Shown one piece after another: positions 449-7,514 of a DNA stretch of 7,618 bases. Origin of the DNA: Planctomycetota bacterium (GTDB lineage Bacteria > Planctomycetota > Phycisphaerae > FEN-1346); NCBI GenBank assembly GCA_026386995.1, contig JAPLMO010000322.1, positions 1 to 7,618 on the forward strand, read 5' to 3'. Numbering within the stretch: the first letter of the stretch is position 1; the number at the start of each line of letters is the position of its first letter. The notes beneath the pieces were generated by a model that saw only the letters and a list, made by a program, of their open reading frames with translations, ran no database searches and was not told the DNA's origin. A program made the translations under genes and the position numbers.

Positions 449-540
449 CGGGTGGCATGCCCACGCCGCTGTTTGCGTGGGCCTGATGTCTGGCCGCGCG
501 GCACATGCCCACGCAAACATCCGCGTGGGCATGCCACCCG
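449..540. repeat. Element D: 92-bp nested palindrome, REPIN/BIME-like
   Basis: The outer arms pair perfectly over 18 bases (449-466 with 523-540, starting CGGGTGGCATGCCCACGC). After a 4-base partly paired internal loop, an inner 12-base stem follows (GTTTGCGTGGGC 471-482 with GCCCACGCAAAC 507-518). The apex adds ATGT 486-489 with ACAT 503-506 and the self-complementary GCCGCGCGGC at 493-502. Each half is also a hairpin by itself (GCCCACGC 459-466 with GCGTGGGC 475-482, and the mirror pair 507-514 with 523-530). It fills the gap between two divergent genes. A 7-base pair, CGTCAGT 421-427 and ACTGACG 568-574, flanks it and could mark wider ends. The rest of the 254-634 gap holds the hairpin and -10 box listed separately; no gene is seen. 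Confidence 0.8.
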
Positions 541-634
541 CCTTGCGTACGGCTCGTCGCCACCGTAACTGACGCCGTACCCGGCCGTACGGGTGAGTGG
601 GTTGGGACCGCAGGCATTTTCACGGGGCAAAAAA

Positions 635-1219
635 ATGATCGTCACAGGCCCGTTCTCCCTGGAAAGGGTGGTAAGCGCTGTGGAGAAAGTCCGCCGGCGT
701 CTTTTGAAAACCGCCGCAGCCCTTAAGGCCGCGGGCGTGCCGTATGCCGTTGTCGGCGAAAGCGCCGTGGCCCTGTGGGTCTCCCGCGTTGACGAAGCCG
801 CCGTCCGAAACACGCGGGACGTGGATATCCTCATCCGCCGGGGGGACTTGGAGGCCGCCAAGGCCGCGCTGGAATCCGCCGGTTTCGTCTACCGGCACGT
901 GGCCGGGATGGAGGTCTTTCTCGACGGGCCTGATGCCAAGCCCCGCGACGCCGTCCACATCGTTTTCGCCAATGAGAAGGTCCGGCCCCCCGAACCCCTG
1001 GCCAATCCCGATGTCACCGAGTCCGAGCAGACCGACGAGTTGTGCGTCTTATCCCTGGAGGCCCTCGTGCGGATCAAACTCACGGCCTTCCGCGACAAGG
1101 ACCGGACCCACCTTCGCGACCTGATCGAGGTCGGCCTGGTCAACGCTGATTGGCTGCCCCAACTCCCCCCGGTCCTGGCCGACCGCCTGCGCCTGCTGCT
1201 GGAAACCCCAGAGGGATGA
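635..1219 (+). CDS. Nucleotidyltransferase-fold protein (AbiEii/DUF6036-like)
   Basis: A 194-residue protein of the minimal nucleotidyltransferase fold. VVGESAVALW (residues 39-48) matches the glycine/serine loop after the first strand, and TRDVDILI (60-67) carries the paired acids Asp62 and Asp64 that bind metal in this fold. KLTAFRDKDRTHLRDL (148-163) matches the C-terminal Lys/Arg-Asp-Lys-Asp helix seen in AbiEii-type and DUF6036-like proteins. The strand expected to carry the third acid reads AVHIVF (106-111), with His in place of Asp. Relatives transfer nucleotides to RNA or protein targets, some as type IV toxins, but no substrate can be read from this sequence. No antitoxin-like gene adjoins it. 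I chose the ATG at 635 because the conserved part begins just after it; GGGG lies about 7 bases upstream. A GTG at 593 would add 14 residues lacking family character. It converges on the PPC gene, with palindrome A between them. Confidence 0.82.
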   Translation: MIVTGPFSLERVVSAVEKVRRRLLKTAAALKAAGVPYAVVGESAVALWVSRVDEAAVRNTRDVDILIRRGDLEAAKAALESAGFVYRHVAGMEVFLDGPDAKPRDAVHIVFANEKVRPPEPLANPDVTESEQTDELCVLSLEALVRIKLTAFRDKDRTHLRDLIEVGLVNADWLPQLPPVLADRLRLLLETPEG

Positions 1220-1250: not shown

Positions 1251-1334
1251 TGTGGGTGCCACGGCTGCGCAGTTTGCAGCCGTGCGTCCCTGCCGACGAC
1301 CACGGCTGCAAACTGCGCAGCCGTGGCACCCACA
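1251..1334. repeat. Element A: 84-bp palindrome, REPIN-like, same family as B
   Basis: Two 34-base arms (1251-1284 and 1301-1334) are perfect reverse complements around a 16-base spacer. Inside the spacer CGTC (1285-1288) pairs with GACG (1295-1298). Each arm is itself a hairpin: CACGGCTGC 1260-1268 with GCAGCCGTG 1276-1284, and the same pair at 1301-1309 and 1317-1325. The element therefore is an inverted doublet of a 25-base hairpin. It lies between the stops of two convergent genes, where it might help end transcription, but neither side has a T-run. A near copy (B) lies 4134 bases to the right. Confidence 0.9.
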
Positions 1335-1358
1335 GATTTAGTCCTGGCAGGCTAATAG

Positions 1359-3779
1359 TTACGGCGTCACGATCTCGAAGGGTATGGCCGGCAGCGACCC
1401 GACGGCCGCGCGCCGCTGGGGCGCGGGGGCCTTTCCTTTTTCAGCGGCCGGCGCCGCCGGCGTGAAGAAGGCGTTGACGATCAGGTTCCCCTTGAGGCCC
1501 GCCTTGGTCTTGGCGGCGTCGCTCTGAAGCACGACCTCGGTGCCGCCCGGGCACGGCGCGATGCTCTTGATGGTGATTCCGTCCGGCGGGTCGCTCAACT
1601 CCAGGTGGACCTGTTTTGCGTAGGCCAGCAGCGGGGCGGTGAACTGGACCTTGGCCGTCCCGCCGACGGGAATCTTGACGGGGGTGTCGCCGGCGATCTT
1701 GATCTGCGACTTCGCCATGTTGCGCCCCGACACGGCCACCTTCATGTCCTGGGCGGGCACGAGGTGCCGGTACGCGAACGCCTGCATCATGTCTTCTGCC
1801 GGAACGGCCTGGCGGACGACTTCCTTCCCCTGGATCGTCGCGCGGCCTTCCCACGATAGGCTCAGGGGTTCCTGGGTGGGCGTTGCCGGGGCCGTCAGGG
1901 TCACGCGCACCTGGTCCTGGCCGGATGGCACGCAGGCGCCGCCGAGGGTGAACCCCGCCGGCGCGTCCTTCAAGGAGATCGCGATGTCGCCGGAGAACCC
2001 GTCCCTGCGCAGGGCGTAGACGGTGACGGGAATTGCCGCGCCCCCACGGACGTTGATGCTGGACGGCACGACCCGCAACTCAAAATCGGGTTGCGGCAGG
2101 CTGATGCGGAGGCGGTAGGCATAGTCCTGGCCGCCCTTGTGCTGCGCATCGCCCAGGTGGACGTAGTACGTCCCGTCGGCGGGCAGTTTGAAGCGGATGC
2201 AGGAGTCGGCCTGGTGCGTGGTCAGGCCCGCTCCCTTGTCCTCGTGGTCGTCATTGAAGGCCAGTTGTTTGCCGGCGGCGTCGGTCAGTTTGAGGACGGA
2301 ATCCAGCGGCGAGTTGAGGCGCCGGGCATCGACTTCGGCGACGACCTCGCTGCCGGCCCGGCCCTCGAAGCGGAACACGTCGCAGTCGTCGGCCTTGTCG
2401 ATGCGGCCGTTGACAATAATGGGGAGCGTGACAGGCTGGGCGCGGTCGGGCGTGTCGTTCGGCTCCTTCTCAAGGCATTCGGGCAACGTGTCGGCCGCAA
2501 AGGGCACCTTGTTGGAGACCATCGCCGCCGCGCCCACGGAAACCAGATGAACGCCCGGCTGCCGGGCCTGCGGCATGAGTTGGTTCACCGGAAGGTTCCA
2601 GCCCTTCAGGGCGACGGCCGTCCGTGCGCCGGCTGGGCCGCCGAGGGGGAAGATGCCGGTCACAAACGGCAGTTCGCCCACGGTGATGCGATAGAGAAAA
2701 TCTTCCCGGCCGCGGTAGATGGCGTCTTTGATCTCGATGACGTACTCGCCGTCCCTGGCGATCTCGTAGTACAGGACCGGATCGGGGTTGAACCGAAAAT
2801 CGTCGTCATACGCCAGTTCCTTGCCCGCCGAGTCGTAGAGCGCCAGCGTGGCCTGGAACCATCCGGGCACGGCGTCGGGGATGTACGGGATCAGTTCCCG
2901 CGCTGCGGCGACGATAACCAGGTGCTGGCCCTTGCGGGCCGAGAACCGATACCGGTCCACCTCGCCTGGCAGGATCTGGCCGTTGACGATGGCCGGCAGG
3001 GTGATGACCGTCTCCGGCTCGGCTTTGCGGGTCTTGGGCTCGAAGGCGGCCCGGGCGACGGCGCTTCTCTGCTCCGCGATGTTTCGGGACGGTTTCTCGG
3101 AGAACTCGGGCAACTGGCCGACGCGGAAGGCCAGCGGGTTGGACAGGCCGGCCGGCGATGCGATGCGCACCTCGCGCTGGCCGGGCTCGGCGTCCGGGGC
3201 AATCGTTACCTGGAGGACGGCGAGTTCGCTTATGGCGGGATTGGCGGGCCTCCGGACGGCCATGCCGATTTTCTTGCGGAGTTCGGCCAGCGTCTTGTCG
3301 TCTTCGGCCGTCCAGGAGGCGTTGGCGTACTTCTTCTTGAGGGCCTCGATCTCCTTGTCGTCGTTGGCGCCGGCGTCTTTGGCGTCCTTGCTGTCCTTGA
3401 CGTTTTTGGCGTTCTTGAGGCTTCTTAATGCCTCCAGGGCCTTGAAATCGTTTTGCACCACGGCCTTGCGGGCCAGCAACTCGTCCAACTTGATGCGCAT
3501 CTCGTTCAGTTCCTTTTGCGGGGTCGGCCGGATGAGTTCGGAGATGGCGGCCTGGACGCCTGTGCCGGAGAAATAAATGTTGGCGACGCCGTCCATCGCC
3601 TGCCCGGCGATGATCGCCTCAAACGTGGTTCCCTGCTTTCCGCCGGCGGGATAGATGTAGCCGATGCGCGGCGCCGGTTGCTGCGCCGTCGCGGCCGTCG
3701 CGGTCGCCAGAAAAGCCGCGAACACGAGCAAGGCGGAGCAACTTTGCGCGGCGGGTCTCCTGGGCCTGTTGCCCAACAT
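1359..3779 (-). CDS. Secreted PPC-domain protein with IPT/TIG-like domains
   Basis: An 806-residue exported protein and the last gene of the operon. The start chosen (ATG at 3779) gives a normal Sec signal: basic n-region MLGNRPRR, hydrophobic core SALLVFAAFLATATAA, likely cleavage after ATA (about residue 32). An IPT/TIG-like domain spans about 38-222 (IYPAGGKQGTTFEAIIAGQ), split by a charged helical insertion at about 86-176 that includes a KNAKNVKDSKDAKDA repeat. Two PPC-type beta domains follow at about 259-368 and 449-560, each with a VNG strand, a later Asp-rich turn (YDDDF 324-328; NDDHED 509-514) and a final DFLYR/DYAYR strand. The remainder (about 565-806) is beta-rich. I see no catalytic motif; such proteins probably bind or scaffold extracellular substrates. 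The reading frame is open back to an ATG at 3959, which has GGAG 5 bases upstream and sits 14 bases after the DUF1501 stop. That start would translate palindrome C into a 60-residue extension, so the start remains uncertain. Confidence 0.88.
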   Translation of the reverse strand: MLGNRPRRPAAQSCSALLVFAAFLATATAATAQQPAPRIGYIYPAGGKQGTTFEAIIAGQAMDGVANIYFSGTGVQAAISELIRPTPQKELNEMRIKLDELLARKAVVQNDFKALEALRSLKNAKNVKDSKDAKDAGANDDKEIEALKKKYANASWTAEDDKTLAELRKKIGMAVRRPANPAISELAVLQVTIAPDAEPGQREVRIASPAGLSNPLAFRVGQLPEFSEKPSRNIAEQRSAVARAAFEPKTRKAEPETVITLPAIVNGQILPGEVDRYRFSARKGQHLVIVAAARELIPYIPDAVPGWFQATLALYDSAGKELAYDDDFRFNPDPVLYYEIARDGEYVIEIKDAIYRGREDFLYRITVGELPFVTGIFPLGGPAGARTAVALKGWNLPVNQLMPQARQPGVHLVSVGAAAMVSNKVPFAADTLPECLEKEPNDTPDRAQPVTLPIIVNGRIDKADDCDVFRFEGRAGSEVVAEVDARRLNSPLDSVLKLTDAAGKQLAFNDDHEDKGAGLTTHQADSCIRFKLPADGTYYVHLGDAQHKGGQDYAYRLRISLPQPDFELRVVPSSINVRGGAAIPVTVYALRRDGFSGDIAISLKDAPAGFTLGGACVPSGQDQVRVTLTAPATPTQEPLSLSWEGRATIQGKEVVRQAVPAEDMMQAFAYRHLVPAQDMKVAVSGRNMAKSQIKIAGDTPVKIPVGGTAKVQFTAPLLAYAKQVHLELSDPPDGITIKSIAPCPGGTEVVLQSDAAKTKAGLKGNLIVNAFFTPAAPAAEKGKAPAPQRRAAVGSLPAIPFEIVTP

Positions 3780-3905
3780 GTAGGGTGGGTGCTCTGCACC
3801 CACCAATGCCGTTTTTCTCGCGTGAAAATGGTGGGTGCAGAGCACCCACCCTACATGAACGGCAATTCGGCAATTGGGCAACAGGCCCAGGAGGCCCACC
3901 GCGCA
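3745..3905. repeat. Element C: 161-bp palindrome with GTAG-flanked hairpins, REPIN/BIME-like
   Basis: The core arms 3777-3805 and 3829-3857 are perfect 29-base reverse complements; TTTTC 3813-3817 with GAAAA 3824-3828 closes the apex. Each arm is a hairpin: GGTGGGTGC 3784-3792, loop TCT, GCACCCACC 3796-3804, mirrored on the right. GTAG stands in front of each hairpin (3780-3783 on plus; complement of 3851-3854 on minus). The pairing continues outward: 3761-3776 matches 3874-3889 perfectly and 3745-3760 matches 3890-3905 at 14 of 16 bases. The right side carries 16 extra bases (3858-3873) that help form a tandem CGGCAATT (3860-3867, 3868-3875). It lies between the DUF1501 and PPC genes and overlaps the first codons of the latter. 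Confidence 0.88.
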
Positions 3906-3973
3906 CGGGTTTGCATCACGCTCTTGTGCGTATGTTGTGTGCCATCGGGATAGGTTCATAAATGCTCCGCGGC

Positions 3974-5350
3974 TTACACGAGTTCCTTGAGGCGTCCGCC
4001 CGTCTTAACGTTGTCCGCGGCGGCGGGTAAGACGCGGGCCTCCTGGCCCTGGGGATGAGGCAGCCTGGCCTCGGTGTCGATGCCAAGCAACTCGTACATG
4101 CTGGCGATAAGGTCGACCGGGTACACGGGCCGGTCCTTCACGTCCTCGCCGCGGGCGTCGGACGAGCCGATCACGCGGCCGCCCTTGAAGCCGCCGCCCG
4201 CCACCAGTGCCGAGAAGGCCTTGCCGTAATGGCCGCGCCCGCCGTTCCAGGGCGCCTCCCACTGGACCTTGGGCGTCCTGCCGAATTCGCCGCAGCACCA
4301 GATGATGGTGCTTGCCAGCAGGCCGCGGTCCGACAGGTCCTGAAGCAGCGTGGCAAGGCCCTTGTCCAGTTCGGGCAGTCTCCGGCGCATCTCCTGGAAG
4401 TGCTGCTTGTGCGTGTCCCAGCCCTTGTAGTTGATAGTGACGTATGGAACGCCCTTTTCGACCAGCCGCCGCGCCACAAGGCACGCCTGCCCGAACGTGG
4501 TCCGGCCATAGCGGTCCTTCAGGTCGTCTTTCTCCGAGGTGACGTCGAAAGCCTTGCCGGCGTCGCCCAGAATCAGGTCGTACGCCTGGTTCTCGCACTG
4601 ATCGGCGGCAACGAGTTGCGGATCGTCCTTCATGGCCTGCCCAAGCGTGTTCAACTTGTGCAGGAGTTCGCGCCGGTCCTTCTGCCGCTGCTCGGAGATG
4701 CCCTGAGCGACGATCCCCTCGACGGCAAACGGGACCCTCCCCGGGTCGCCGCCCGTGGCAAAGGGTTTGTAGCGCGAGCCCAGGAACCCGGCCTCGGAGA
4801 ACCGCCCCTGCAGTTCGGTCAGCACGATGTAGGGGGGCAGGAGGCCGCGATACCCGGCATCGACGCCCTTGAAGAGCGACACCACGGCGCCGACGCTCGG
4901 ATAGACGTCCTTGCCGCCGGGCGGCCGCCCGGTCTGCACCATGTACGCCGCCGTCTCGTGGCCGTTGTTGCCGTGGGTCATGCTGCGGATAAGGGCGTAC
5001 TTGTCGGCCTGCTTTGCCAGTTCGGGTAGCAGTTCGCAGATCTTGATTCCCGGCACGTTGGTGTCGATCGGCTTGGTGAGCGGGCCGCAATAGTCGTTGC
5101 CGGCATCGGGCTTCGGGTCGAAGGTGTCGAGGTGCGACGGGCCGCCCCACAGCCATATCTGGATGACGGCCTTGGCCTTGCCGGGGGTCTTGGCCGGGGC
5201 CGGCGGTGCGGCGGCTATCGCCCTAAGGGCCGGGCTGCCCGCCAGCGCAAGGCCGGCCGCGCCGAGTAGGCCCCGCCTCATCGCCTCGCGCCGGGAGATC
5301 GGCAGACCCAGCGCATCCCACATGCTGCCGGATTTCTGCTGCGTGCTCAT
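3974..5350 (-). CDS. DUF1501 protein, Tat-exported, alkaline phosphatase/sulfatase-like fold
   Basis: A 458-residue protein, close to the usual length of the DUF1501 family (PF07394), which is related in fold to sulfatases and alkaline phosphatases but has no settled reaction. The N-terminus has a twin-arginine signal: SRREAMRRG at 19-27, then a hydrophobic stretch GLLGAAGLALAG. Family landmarks follow: IQIWLWGGPSHLDTFDPKPD (63-82), THGNNGHE (125-132), NYKGWDTHKQHF (307-318), GEFGRTP (354-360), GRGHYGKAFSALVAGGGFKG (371-390), and VYPVDLIASMYELLGID (409-425). His and Asp residues in these blocks are the likely metal and active-site ligands. The common GRDH block reads GRGH here. The ATG at 5350 is preferred because AGGAG (complement of 5357-5361) lies 6 bases before it and the Tat signal begins soon after. 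An in-frame ATG at 5467 would translate palindrome B. It follows the DUF1549/DUF1553 gene in the operon, the usual partnership in planctomycetes. Confidence 0.92.
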   Translation of the reverse strand: MSTQQKSGSMWDALGLPISRREAMRRGLLGAAGLALAGSPALRAIAAAPPAPAKTPGKAKAVIQIWLWGGPSHLDTFDPKPDAGNDYCGPLTKPIDTNVPGIKICELLPELAKQADKYALIRSMTHGNNGHETAAYMVQTGRPPGGKDVYPSVGAVVSLFKGVDAGYRGLLPPYIVLTELQGRFSEAGFLGSRYKPFATGGDPGRVPFAVEGIVAQGISEQRQKDRRELLHKLNTLGQAMKDDPQLVAADQCENQAYDLILGDAGKAFDVTSEKDDLKDRYGRTTFGQACLVARRLVEKGVPYVTINYKGWDTHKQHFQEMRRRLPELDKGLATLLQDLSDRGLLASTIIWCCGEFGRTPKVQWEAPWNGGRGHYGKAFSALVAGGGFKGGRVIGSSDARGEDVKDRPVYPVDLIASMYELLGIDTEARLPHPQGQEARVLPAAADNVKTGGRLKELV

Positions 5351-5356
5351 GCGCCT

Positions 5357-5361
5357 CTCCT
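5357..5361 (-). promoter_or_regulatory. Ribosome binding site deciding the DUF1501 start
   Basis: The minus strand reads AGGAG, 6 bases before the ATG at 5350. It supports this start over the upstream in-frame ATG at 5467, which sits at the rim of palindrome B with no comparable site. Confidence 0.6.
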
Positions 5362-5387
5362 CATGCCGCGCTAACGGCTGGTAAACC

Positions 5388-5465
5388 GGGTGCCACGGCT
5401 GCGCCGTTTGCAGCCGTGTATCGCTGCCGATGACCACGGCTGCAAACGGCGCAGCCGTGGCACCC
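5388..5465. repeat. Element B: 78-bp palindrome, second copy of the A family
   Basis: Arms 5388-5418 and 5435-5465 are perfect 31-base reverse complements with a 16-base spacer of the same length as in A, identical to it at 12 of 16 positions. The arm sequence differs from A only at 5405 (C for A) and at its pairing partner 5448 (G for T), so pairing is kept. Within the spacer the apical stem is also kept by paired changes. It lies in the 138-base gap between the DUF1549/DUF1553 stop and the DUF1501 start, so it is transcribed inside the operon and should form a very stable hairpin in the mRNA. Confidence 0.9.
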
Positions 5466-5488
5466 ATGGATTCAATTACGCCAGTCGA

Positions 5489-7240
5489 CTAATGCCGATA
5501 GAGGAACTCCGCGCTGTTGATCAGCGCCCACGCGACGTCCATCGCGACCGTGCCGCCCTTGCCGGCGCCGGCCGGGGCATACGCCTCCACGGCCTTCAGT
5601 TCCTCATCGGTCGGGAACCGCGACAGGATCGTCAGGTACAGGTTGTTGACGGTTTCCCGCGGCCCCGCCTTGGACTGAAGCAGGGTCCGCAACTTGGGAC
5701 TCTGCTCGATTTTGCGCTGGATGTGGCTGGAGTTCAGCAGGTGCAGCCGCTGGTCGGCGGTCGGGCGGCTGTTGCGTTCGGCCTCCATGCCGGTGTCGCG
5801 CGGCGGGCGGCCGAACATCTCCAGGAAGGAACTCGTGATGCTGCCGTCAGGCAGCGCGATCGAACGCATGTTCTCCGGAATGAACGTGAAAGGCTCGGGA
5901 ATGGCGCTCGAGTACTTCTCGTTTGTCCCGGTGATCTGGTCGAGGGCGTCGATCAGCACCTCCGCCTCCAGCCGCCGCAGGGGATACTGCGCAAAGTTCG
6001 CCGCGGCCTCGGGCCGCCGGCCCTTGGGAATGGATGACAGTTGATACGTCTTGGAGTTCAGGATCAACCGGAAAAGGTGCTTCAGGTCGTAGCGGGCGCC
6101 GACCAACTCCTTCTCCAGGTAGGCCAGGAGTTCGGGGTTGACCGGCAGATTGTCGGGCCGGATGTCGTCGGCCTCATGGATGATGCCGCGCCCCATTAGC
6201 CACGACCATACGCGATTCGAGATGTTCTTCGCGAACCACGCATTTCTCGGCGTAATCAGCCACGCGGCGAAGGCCGCCCGCGGGTCCCGGCCCGGCGAAA
6301 TCTGGGCCGGCGTCCCGTCCGGAAAGACCGCCGCCTGAGGCGGGACCGCGGCGGCCGGCGGCGCGGGGGCGGCGGTTTGCGGCGCGCCGGCAGCGGTTTG
6401 CGACGCGCCGGCGGCTGTCGGCGGAGCAGGGGCGGGGGTTTGCGGCTTGTCGGCAGCGGCCGGCGGCGCGGCGGTTGCGGGTTGCTTCGGCGCAGCAGCC
6501 GCGGCTTGCGGCGCGGCGGAGGCCGTCTGCGGCGCGTCCTTCACAAGATCGAAGGAGACGATCTCCTCTTTCCATTCTCCCGTGGACTTATATCCGAGTC
6601 TCGAGAAAAAGGCCGCCATGCCCGCCAGCCGCTCCTTGGGCCATTTCTCCGCCCGCGCGCCCATGAACGTCAGGGCCACCGCCTGGGCAATGCCCTGGGG
6701 ATCCTTGCTCTGCATGGCCCGGTAGAAGTTGACCGGCGCCTCGCGAAAACAACTGCCGTTCGCCAGAAGCATCTCACGCGCGAACTGGTCGTACGGCTTG
6801 TTCTCCTTGACGCTCGTCCGGATCCAGCGATGATACGCCTGGGCCGCGTTCGGCCACAGGTTGATCGGGAACTCCGCCTTGACCCGCAACAGGTCGCTCC
6901 ACTTCATGGCCCAGTAATCGGCGAACTCGTCGCGCGCAAGCAGGCGGTCGACCAGCGCGCGGCGTTTGTTGGGGTCGCTGTCCTGGATGAAGTTTCTCGC
7001 CTCCTCGGCCGTGGGAAGCGTGCCGATCACGTCCAGGTACACGCGCCGGACGAATATGCCGTCCGAACAGAGGTTGGCCGGCTGGATGCCCAATTTCTCC
7101 AGCCCCCCGAAAACCAGTTTGTCGATCTGGCCGTCGGGCGTCGGGGCGGGGCCCTCAAAAGGGGTCGGCGGCGCGGCCGCGCCCAAGACGCTCAGGGCCG
7201 CCAGCAAGACGGCCGCCGAAGCCAACCACGCCTTCTTCAT
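5489..7240 (-). CDS. DUF1549/DUF1553 secreted protein, short form without heme motif
   Basis: A 583-residue protein and first gene of the operon. A Sec signal (MKKAWLASAAVLLAALSVLG) is followed by a DUF1549 region at about 35-232: VRRVYLDVIGTLPTAEEA (64-81), FADYWAMKWSDLLRV (106-120), and YDQFAREMLLANGS (150-163). A DUF1553 region follows at about 317-583: FAKNISNRVWSWLMGRGI (336-353), LRRLEAEVLIDAL (421-433), MFGRPPRDT (475-483), LYLTILSRFPTDEE (534-547), and a C-terminal WALINSAEFLYRH. A linker at 236-304 made almost wholly of Ala, Pro, Gln and Thr joins them. Many family members carry a CxxCH motif after the VALTFMG strand; here the sequence runs TFMGARAEKWPKERLAGMAAFF (191-212 contains this), and the protein has only two cysteines (58, 164), far apart. 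The N-terminal cytochrome-like domain of long relatives is also absent. Its role is unknown; location and partners suggest work outside the cytoplasm with the next two genes. GAGG-type Shine-Dalgarno sequences lie just before the ATG. Confidence 0.9.
   Translation of the reverse strand: MKKAWLASAAVLLAALSVLGAAAPPTPFEGPAPTPDGQIDKLVFGGLEKLGIQPANLCSDGIFVRRVYLDVIGTLPTAEEARNFIQDSDPNKRRALVDRLLARDEFADYWAMKWSDLLRVKAEFPINLWPNAAQAYHRWIRTSVKENKPYDQFAREMLLANGSCFREAPVNFYRAMQSKDPQGIAQAVALTFMGARAEKWPKERLAGMAAFFSRLGYKSTGEWKEEIVSFDLVKDAPQTASAAPQAAAAAPKQPATAAPPAAADKPQTPAPAPPTAAGASQTAAGAPQTAAPAPPAAAVPPQAAVFPDGTPAQISPGRDPRAAFAAWLITPRNAWFAKNISNRVWSWLMGRGIIHEADDIRPDNLPVNPELLAYLEKELVGARYDLKHLFRLILNSKTYQLSSIPKGRRPEAAANFAQYPLRRLEAEVLIDALDQITGTNEKYSSAIPEPFTFIPENMRSIALPDGSITSSFLEMFGRPPRDTGMEAERNSRPTADQRLHLLNSSHIQRKIEQSPKLRTLLQSKAGPRETVNNLYLTILSRFPTDEELKAVEAYAPAGAGKGGTVAMDVAWALINSAEFLYRH
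6372..6413 (-). repeat. Tandem 21-bp repeat in the Ala/Pro linker
   Basis: Two 21-base units (6372-6392 and 6393-6413) differ at two positions and encode AGAPQTA-like and AGASQTA-like heptapeptides on the minus strand. They sit inside the larger low-complexity stretch 6329-6535, which looks grown by slippage or unequal crossing over. The reading frame is kept. Confidence 0.6.
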
Positions 7241-7462: not shown

Positions 7463-7514
7463 TGTCAAGGCCCATTAAAAATGTCCGGGGTCCTGACCCA
7501 GTAGAAATGTCCGG
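7463..7514. mobile_element. Probable end of an insertion sequence with repeated AAATGTCCGG
   Basis: AAATGTCCGG occurs at 7479-7488 and again at 7505-7514, 26 bases apart. These overlap the 3' end of the probable transposase reading frame. TGTCAAGG at 7463 is a plausible outer tip, since many insertion sequences begin with TG. Repeated short sites near an end are typical transposase binding sites, for example in IS21-like elements, but the family cannot be assigned here and the other end is outside the window. Confidence 0.4.

Follow-up and report, generated by a model that had tools for sequence, protein, structure and literature searches.

In Pseudomonas fluorescens SBW25, repetitive extragenic palindromic (REP) sequences form inverted pairs around a spacer, the REPINs (REP doublets forming hairpins), which are intergenic, fold into hairpins and are tied to a REP-associated tyrosine transposase (RAYT), and compensatory changes are stated to be common in them (Bertels and Rainey 2011, PMC3116915). 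REP families with GTAG or CGTC tags have been recorded in deep-branching phyla, Planctomycetes being named among them, and their head-to-head dimers include homodimers and heterodimers with complementary spacer ends (PMC3733652). Class 2 TnpA-REP proteins, which go with GT[AG]G REPs, carry HUH and Y motifs and have their genes flanked by REPs (PMC6006769), and the ends of IS200/IS605 elements have, as a REPIN does, subterminal hairpins, guide tetranucleotides and single-strand processing (PMC6006769, PMC8266576). The guide model and the recognition of single-stranded DNA (ssDNA) hairpins are described in the same two sources, and for the Marinomonas system CT and CA are given as cleavage dinucleotides (PMC8266576). 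As far as the available text of these papers goes, REPs and planctomycetes are brought together in PMC3733652 and PMC6006769. Here we describe two palindromic elements, A and B, in a 7,618-nt stretch of DNA from an uncultured planctomycete (the window, by which we mean this stretch at its full length). We consider it very probable that A and B are copies of one REPIN, as their anatomy and their relatives in other genomes indicate, copied by a RAYT, as the relatives suggest, with selection on the own stem of each REP and with the one symmetric loop change between the copies reflecting a homodimer.

Like the REPINs of SBW25, A and B are inverted REPs around a spacer that lie between genes, form hairpins and, through their relatives, are tied to a RAYT; they differ in host phylum, REP sequence, guide (GTGC) and the 16-nt length of the spacer. 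They share with the GTAG and CGTC dimers the head-to-head arrangement and the complementary spacer ends but carry another tag, and in contrast to IS200/IS605 they have no transposase gene inside and end in two identical inverted hairpins. According to the available text of the sources above, compensatory changes in REPINs and dimers with complementary spacer ends are thus known already.

Each 31-nt arm of A and B reads GGGTGC, then CACGGCTGC, a 7-nt loop and GCAGCCGTG (Table 1). A single arm folds by itself into a hairpin of 9-10 pairs, and given that each arm is a REP hairpin and the arms are inverted around a spacer, the whole element is a REPIN. Complementarity between the arms is 100% over 31 nt in B and 95% over 40 nt in A. 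The flanks of A (1245-1253 and 1332-1340, TAATTATGT and ACAGATTTA) extend its palindrome imperfectly, and B is without such an extension. Both copies are intergenic and lie within the 7.6 kb of the window; as palindromes they are far beyond chance, while the compensation between them is only moderately so.

Searched with a free loop in a collection of 84,980 species genomes, the arm pattern was found in 98 stretches, all of them from three planctomycete assemblies, CAITIS (G001), PMYD (G002) and PMZT (G003, once). G001 holds 61 elements with a short spacer (reversed control pattern: 0) and G002 holds 59 with a long spacer (reversed control pattern: 1); the short-spacer pattern gave no match in six other genomes tried, G003 included. 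Among 397 genomes of the class, the exact arm has one match in G002 and one in G003, the arm pattern matches once, at a contig edge, in one of the eight genomes of the order of G003, and BLAST of B against G003 returned four matches, both strands counted. At the G003 match (L006, 1-62), the contig begins inside the left arm of a REPIN, so that assembly of these draft genomes may miss such palindromes and their number may be underestimated. The arm matched no stretch in viral contigs, and an element carried by viruses was rejected on this ground.

The REPs of these relatives are linked to transposase genes. In G002, a Y1 transposase gene (L126) is flanked by two inverted REPs, each with the A/B stem type; in G001 (L116), one flank is of the A/B stem type and the other of the second arm type of that genome; and in G003 (L125), the flanks are REPs of the type seen at 449-540 of the window. 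Against the profile NF047646 (REP_Tyr_transpos, cut-off 80), the three proteins score 91.2 (L116), 87.6 (L126) and 88.4 bits (L125), the HUH motif H64-x-H66 and Y123 are identical in all three, a likeness to the class 2 TnpA-REP proteins, and all eight genomes in the order to which G003 belongs contain matches to the profile, seven of them over the cut-off. More generally, a GTNN tag with a hairpin, inverted on both sides, was found at 12 of 60 Y1-transposase-like loci compared with 0 of 252 control positions taken from the loci of the arm search, where the 60 loci represent 56 distinct places (four G003 genes were counted twice, L125 being L277) and include weak Y1 matches that are possibly no RAYTs. 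L116, with unlike stems on its two flanks, escapes this rule, and so does the right arm of A, where the final C of the tag can pair with the base that follows the stem. The tags at the 12 flanked loci are GTGG (5), GTGC (4), GTAG (3) and GTGA (1). GTGC flanks L121, L126, L280 and L287; L121 has GTGA on one flank, and its Y1 match lies inside a 1252-aa frame and may be no RAYT.

Extrapolating from these relatives, we infer that the host of the window has a similar RAYT by which A and B are mobilised, and that this enzyme acts on ssDNA with GTGC as guide. The REPIN would be a non-autonomous miniature mobile element, an inverted pair of REP hairpins around the 16-nt spacer, copied by a RAYT (or TnpA-REP, an HUH-Y1 enzyme related to IS200/IS605) whose target would be the single-stranded hairpin into which each REP folds, the guide tetranucleotide standing at its foot. 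Selection would maintain the own stem of each REP. The loop base at 1271/1314 is variable in such REPs, and its symmetric change between A and B would reflect the two identical REPs in each copy. The change itself could stem from a coincidence at a hot spot, from one arm having been copied into the other or from selection on a long hairpin.

The site of B is empty in the relatives examined. The PSD1 and DUF1501 genes that enclose it are adjacent in six relatives whose loci were fetched, and none of the six gaps contains a REPIN; a search of these six loci for inverted repeats with a 12-nt seed came back empty, and in all six the sequence up to 150 nt from the gap is free of a GGTG[CG]CA[CT] foot. 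The gap in G003 is about 57 nt long, close to that of the window minus B (138 - 78 = 60). The comparison fits an insertion of B, although the empty site alone does not give the direction of change and the relatives may instead have lost the element.

An earlier note on this DNA had drawn attention to A and B as elements with a common 16-nt spacer whose differences fall on pairing partners, and most of its description proved exact. Positions 1254-1331 and 5388-5465 align without gaps, with 31-nt arms in both and six differences in 78 nt (1271A/5405C, 1285C/5419T, 1286G/5420A, 1289C/5423G, 1297C/5431T and 1314T/5448G). In the alignment, the arm pair 1271A-1314T is fully compensated by 5405C-5448G and the apical pair 1286G-1297C by 5420A-5431T, and 1285C-1298G becomes the wobble 5419T-5432G, all as had been claimed. 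The change from 1289C to 5423G, in turn, is not simply the unpaired one it had been taken for, as folding of B pairs 5423G with 5428C to give a fifth apical pair. Under uniform substitution, two arm changes landing complementarily on partners have a p of 0.0055, and four spacer changes that keep all four apical pairs with at least one double change a p of 0.027 (0.051 with transition bias), both nulls being simple and post hoc; an end stem of at least four pairs arises in 8% (A) and 15% (B) of shuffled spacers. Since 1271/1314 is loop base 3 of the REP, which is a hot spot in the relatives, the uniform null overstates the case of the arm. That the two arms coincide by chance at a mutable loop position is an explanation that we rate a little below even: loop base 3 varies freely in the relatives, and a symmetric change there separates 11 of 1035 REPIN pairs in G001 and 14 of 231 in G002, yet these rates come to just 1% and 6%, and the apex adds a second compensation. 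The symmetry between A and B remains mildly odd.

In the relatives, two nested folds could be compared, the hairpin of the single REP and the long hairpin through both arms. The arms of G001 have the stems CACACCTGC/GCAGGTGTG (50 arms), CACGGCTGC/GCAGCCGTG (50) and CACAGGTGC/GCACCTGTG (3), and those of G002 have CACGGCTG/CAGCCGTG (47), CACGGCTGC/GCAGCCGTG (34), CACGGGTG/CACCCGTG (6) and, more rarely, CACTGCTGC/GCAGCAGTG (4) and CACGGGTGC/GCACCCGTG (2); other, mostly imperfect or shortened stems occur in seven G001 and five G002 arms. In both genomes, the differences within the REP stem of an arm are compensatory. Within arms, 99.2% of cells are paired in G001 as against 97.9% after shuffling, and 98.7% as against 94.5% in G002, values reached by 0 of 200 shuffles in either genome. 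The long hairpin, in contrast, pairs no better than its shuffles in G001 (85.2% versus 85.4%, reached by 177 of 200) or in G002 (90.8% versus 90.5%, reached by 67 of 200). These tests cover 46 G001 and 22 G002 elements with regular arms (29 and 17 distinct), with shuffles that preserve the make-up of columns but not relatedness. The counts of stems and of loop letters come from a G001 set of 56 distinct sequences from 61 places (one unparsed, and 11 of the 55 parsed without two 7-nt loops; L092, a G002 element with a foreign half, is excluded) and from 50 fetched of the 59 places of G002 (one unparsed, and 28 of the 49 parsed without two 7-nt loops). Since the two arm types of G001 occupy separate columns, few sequences underlie its double changes, and most G001 elements were found by a pattern that requires one perfect arm, which biases the set to intact stems. 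The apical pairs lie outside the comparison, as the spacers of the relatives differ.

A comparison of loop letters from arm to arm is independent of the one-perfect-arm bias. Loop base 3 is C in 51, A in 21 and T in 16 of 88 G001 arms, and it is alike between the two arms of an element in 14 of 21 cases in G002 (13.6 expected) and, below chance, in 11 of 44 in G001 (18.5 expected; an earlier version of this count had 12 of 44 with 17.4 expected), as if identity of the arms were avoided. No G001 element (0 of 55) has the same stem in both arms, and elements with identical loops are likewise absent from the second family of G003 (0 of 24, 3.1 expected; 25 loci fetched, one dropped for N bases), so that the REPIN ends in G001 and G003 look like distinct left and right ends. 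The homologue of the pair 1271/1314 is thus not kept for the sake of pairing in the relatives. Of 29 distinct arm pairs in G001, 14 have it paired and 15 have it broken, and of 17 in G002 the figures are 10 and 7; one-sided breaks are thus as frequent as pairing in the one genome and nearly so in the other, an outcome that the earlier note had named as speaking against its proposal and that concerns the relatives only. As such, its proposal of selection on a folded form is supported for the folded, probably single-stranded, REP stem of each arm but, within either relative, not for the long two-arm hairpin, and a covariation test of the kind that it had suggested, run here in the relatives, divides in the same way, with REP stems that beat the shuffles and a long hairpin that does not. 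The hairpins under selection look like short REP hairpins that serve as transposase substrates, and the single REP hairpin is supported as the selected unit. A seemingly compensatory change in a long hairpin can accordingly be a change in two separate small loops.

Selection on a long hairpin or cruciform formed by the two arms together with the apex, of which the symmetric and the apical compensation would be the trace, appears unlikely to us in view of these comparisons. In its favour, all 31 arm pairs are perfect in A as well as in B, and the four apical pairs survive four changes, with a fifth gained in B (null p 0.027-0.051); no excess over shuffles is seen, however, within G001 or within G002, and the absence of shared stems and shared loops between the arms of relatives argues in the opposite direction. 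We give similarly little credence to the rewriting of one arm from the other, by template switching at a quasi-palindrome or by gene conversion, with the fold itself not under selection. Inside each copy, the two arms are 100% identical though loop base 3 differs between A and B, and a 32-nt inverted repeat (94% complementary) around another REPIN of the window, at 3745-3905, is a possible remnant of fold-back copying, but the counts at loop base 3 reveal no homogenisation of arms in G002 or G001.

Very improbable is an RNA element, be it a terminator, a small RNA or a precursor hairpin. The RNA folds of A and B are very stable (-75.6 and -75.9 kcal/mol) and there are weak Rfam matches, mostly to microRNA families; none of the 11 matches reaches its gathering score, however, and the gene contexts of A and B differ. 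An identity as microRNA or small RNA was rejected on these scores. Intrinsic terminators, sought as a GC stem followed by a T run with loops of 3-8 only, were found neither around A (1180-1420) nor around B (5330-5520), and as no terminator-like or promoter-like site was found around either element, a terminator or promoter reading was rejected as well.

Several observations weigh against A and B as RAYT-copied REPINs whose single stems are selected. In G003, the closest genome found, the A/B arm pattern has a single exact match, which lies at the edge of a contig. Both the multiplicity of the elements and their linkage to RAYT genes are read from relatives and not from the genome of the window itself. 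A and B are homodimers, a state at odds with the absence of same-stem elements in G001 and of same-loop elements in the other family of G003. Their guide GTGC differs from the tags GTAG, GTGG and CGTC in the available text of the published work. Finally, when G001, G002 and the window are pooled, the long hairpin is paired in 87.8% of cells compared with 86.3% after shuffling, which 0 of 200 shuffles reach and which also speaks for selection on the long hairpin; we give this excess little weight, as mixing families of unlike composition can produce it.

Two further REPIN families are present in the window. The tag of the second matches the GT[AG]G REPs of PMC6006769, and its REP has 115 matches in G003 (59 + 56, a few across N runs), 10 in G060 and 6 in G046 among eight genomes searched. 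The third bears the GTAG tag known from PMC3733652 and adjoins the inferred start codon of the PPC-domain protein gene (3779-3777). It is enclosed by the inverted repeat mentioned above (3745-3776 and 3874-3905), which has the opening codons of that gene as one of its arms, and the repeat might be an inverted copy of coding sequence such as fold-back copying leaves. What might be new is a guide that reads GTGC and the occurrence together of three classes of guide in so short a window; our literature search, matching whole words, returned no paper that contains 'GTGC' as well as 'RAYT'. Here we speculate, as a tentative proposal that we think rather doubtful, that the GTGC class of REPs shares these 7.6 kb with a GTGG and a GTAG class, each having a RAYT lineage of its own, with the stem re-coded and the foot GTG[CG]CA[CT] kept, and that short-spacer REPINs are mostly heterodimers that avoid identity of their arms, the homodimers A and B being the exception. 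If this were true, and if the guide sets the cleavage dinucleotide as described for Marinomonas in the available text of PMC8266576, GTGC RAYTs would cut elsewhere than at CT and CA. The three REP classes of the window, together with the transposases that they flank in relatives, form a set in which the co-evolution of guide and cleavage site could be studied.

The genes of the window are planctomycete-like (Table 1), and the closest DUF1501 protein among 41 genomes searched is that of G003, with 81% identity.

Table 1. Coordinates of REPINs, their parts and the genes in the window
Feature	Position	Strand	Description
REPIN copy A	1254..1331	+	78 nt, inverted REP pair and 16-nt spacer, between convergent nucleotidyltransferase-like and PPC genes
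REP of A, left arm	1254..1284	+	tag GTGC, stem CACGGCTGC / GCAGCCGTG, loop GCAGTTT
REP of A, right arm	1301..1331	-	minus-strand reading identical to left arm
Spacer of A	1285..1300	+	apical stem, 4 pairs
REPIN copy B	5388..5465	+	78 nt, in gap between PSCyt2/PSD1 gene and DUF1501 gene
REP of B, left arm	5388..5418	+	tag GTGC, loop GCCGTTT
REP of B, right arm	5435..5465	-	fully complementary to left arm over 31 nt
Spacer of B	5419..5434	+	apical stem, 5 pairs including 5423G-5428C
Second REPIN family	449..540	.	tag GTGG, stem CATGCCCACGC; its REP flanks a RAYT gene in G003
Third REPIN family	3780..3854	.	tag GTAG, stem GGTGGGTGC, loop TCT
Nucleotidyltransferase-like gene	593-1219	+	top profile match PF14907, under its cut-off
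PPC-domain protein gene	1359 to about 3779	-	start inferred; open frame extends to 3959
DUF1501 gene	3974-5350	-	start 5350 aligns with G003 start; longer open frame extends to 5467
PSCyt2/PSD1 gene	5489-7240	-	bounds, with DUF1501 gene, the gap that contains B

Two minor repeats complete the picture of the window. Within the PSCyt2/PSD1 gene, a repeat with a period of about 21 nt at 6315-6548 encodes an Ala/Pro-rich linker, and near the end of the window, at 7464-7514, there is a pair of 25-nt direct repeats that are 80% alike and start 26 nt apart.

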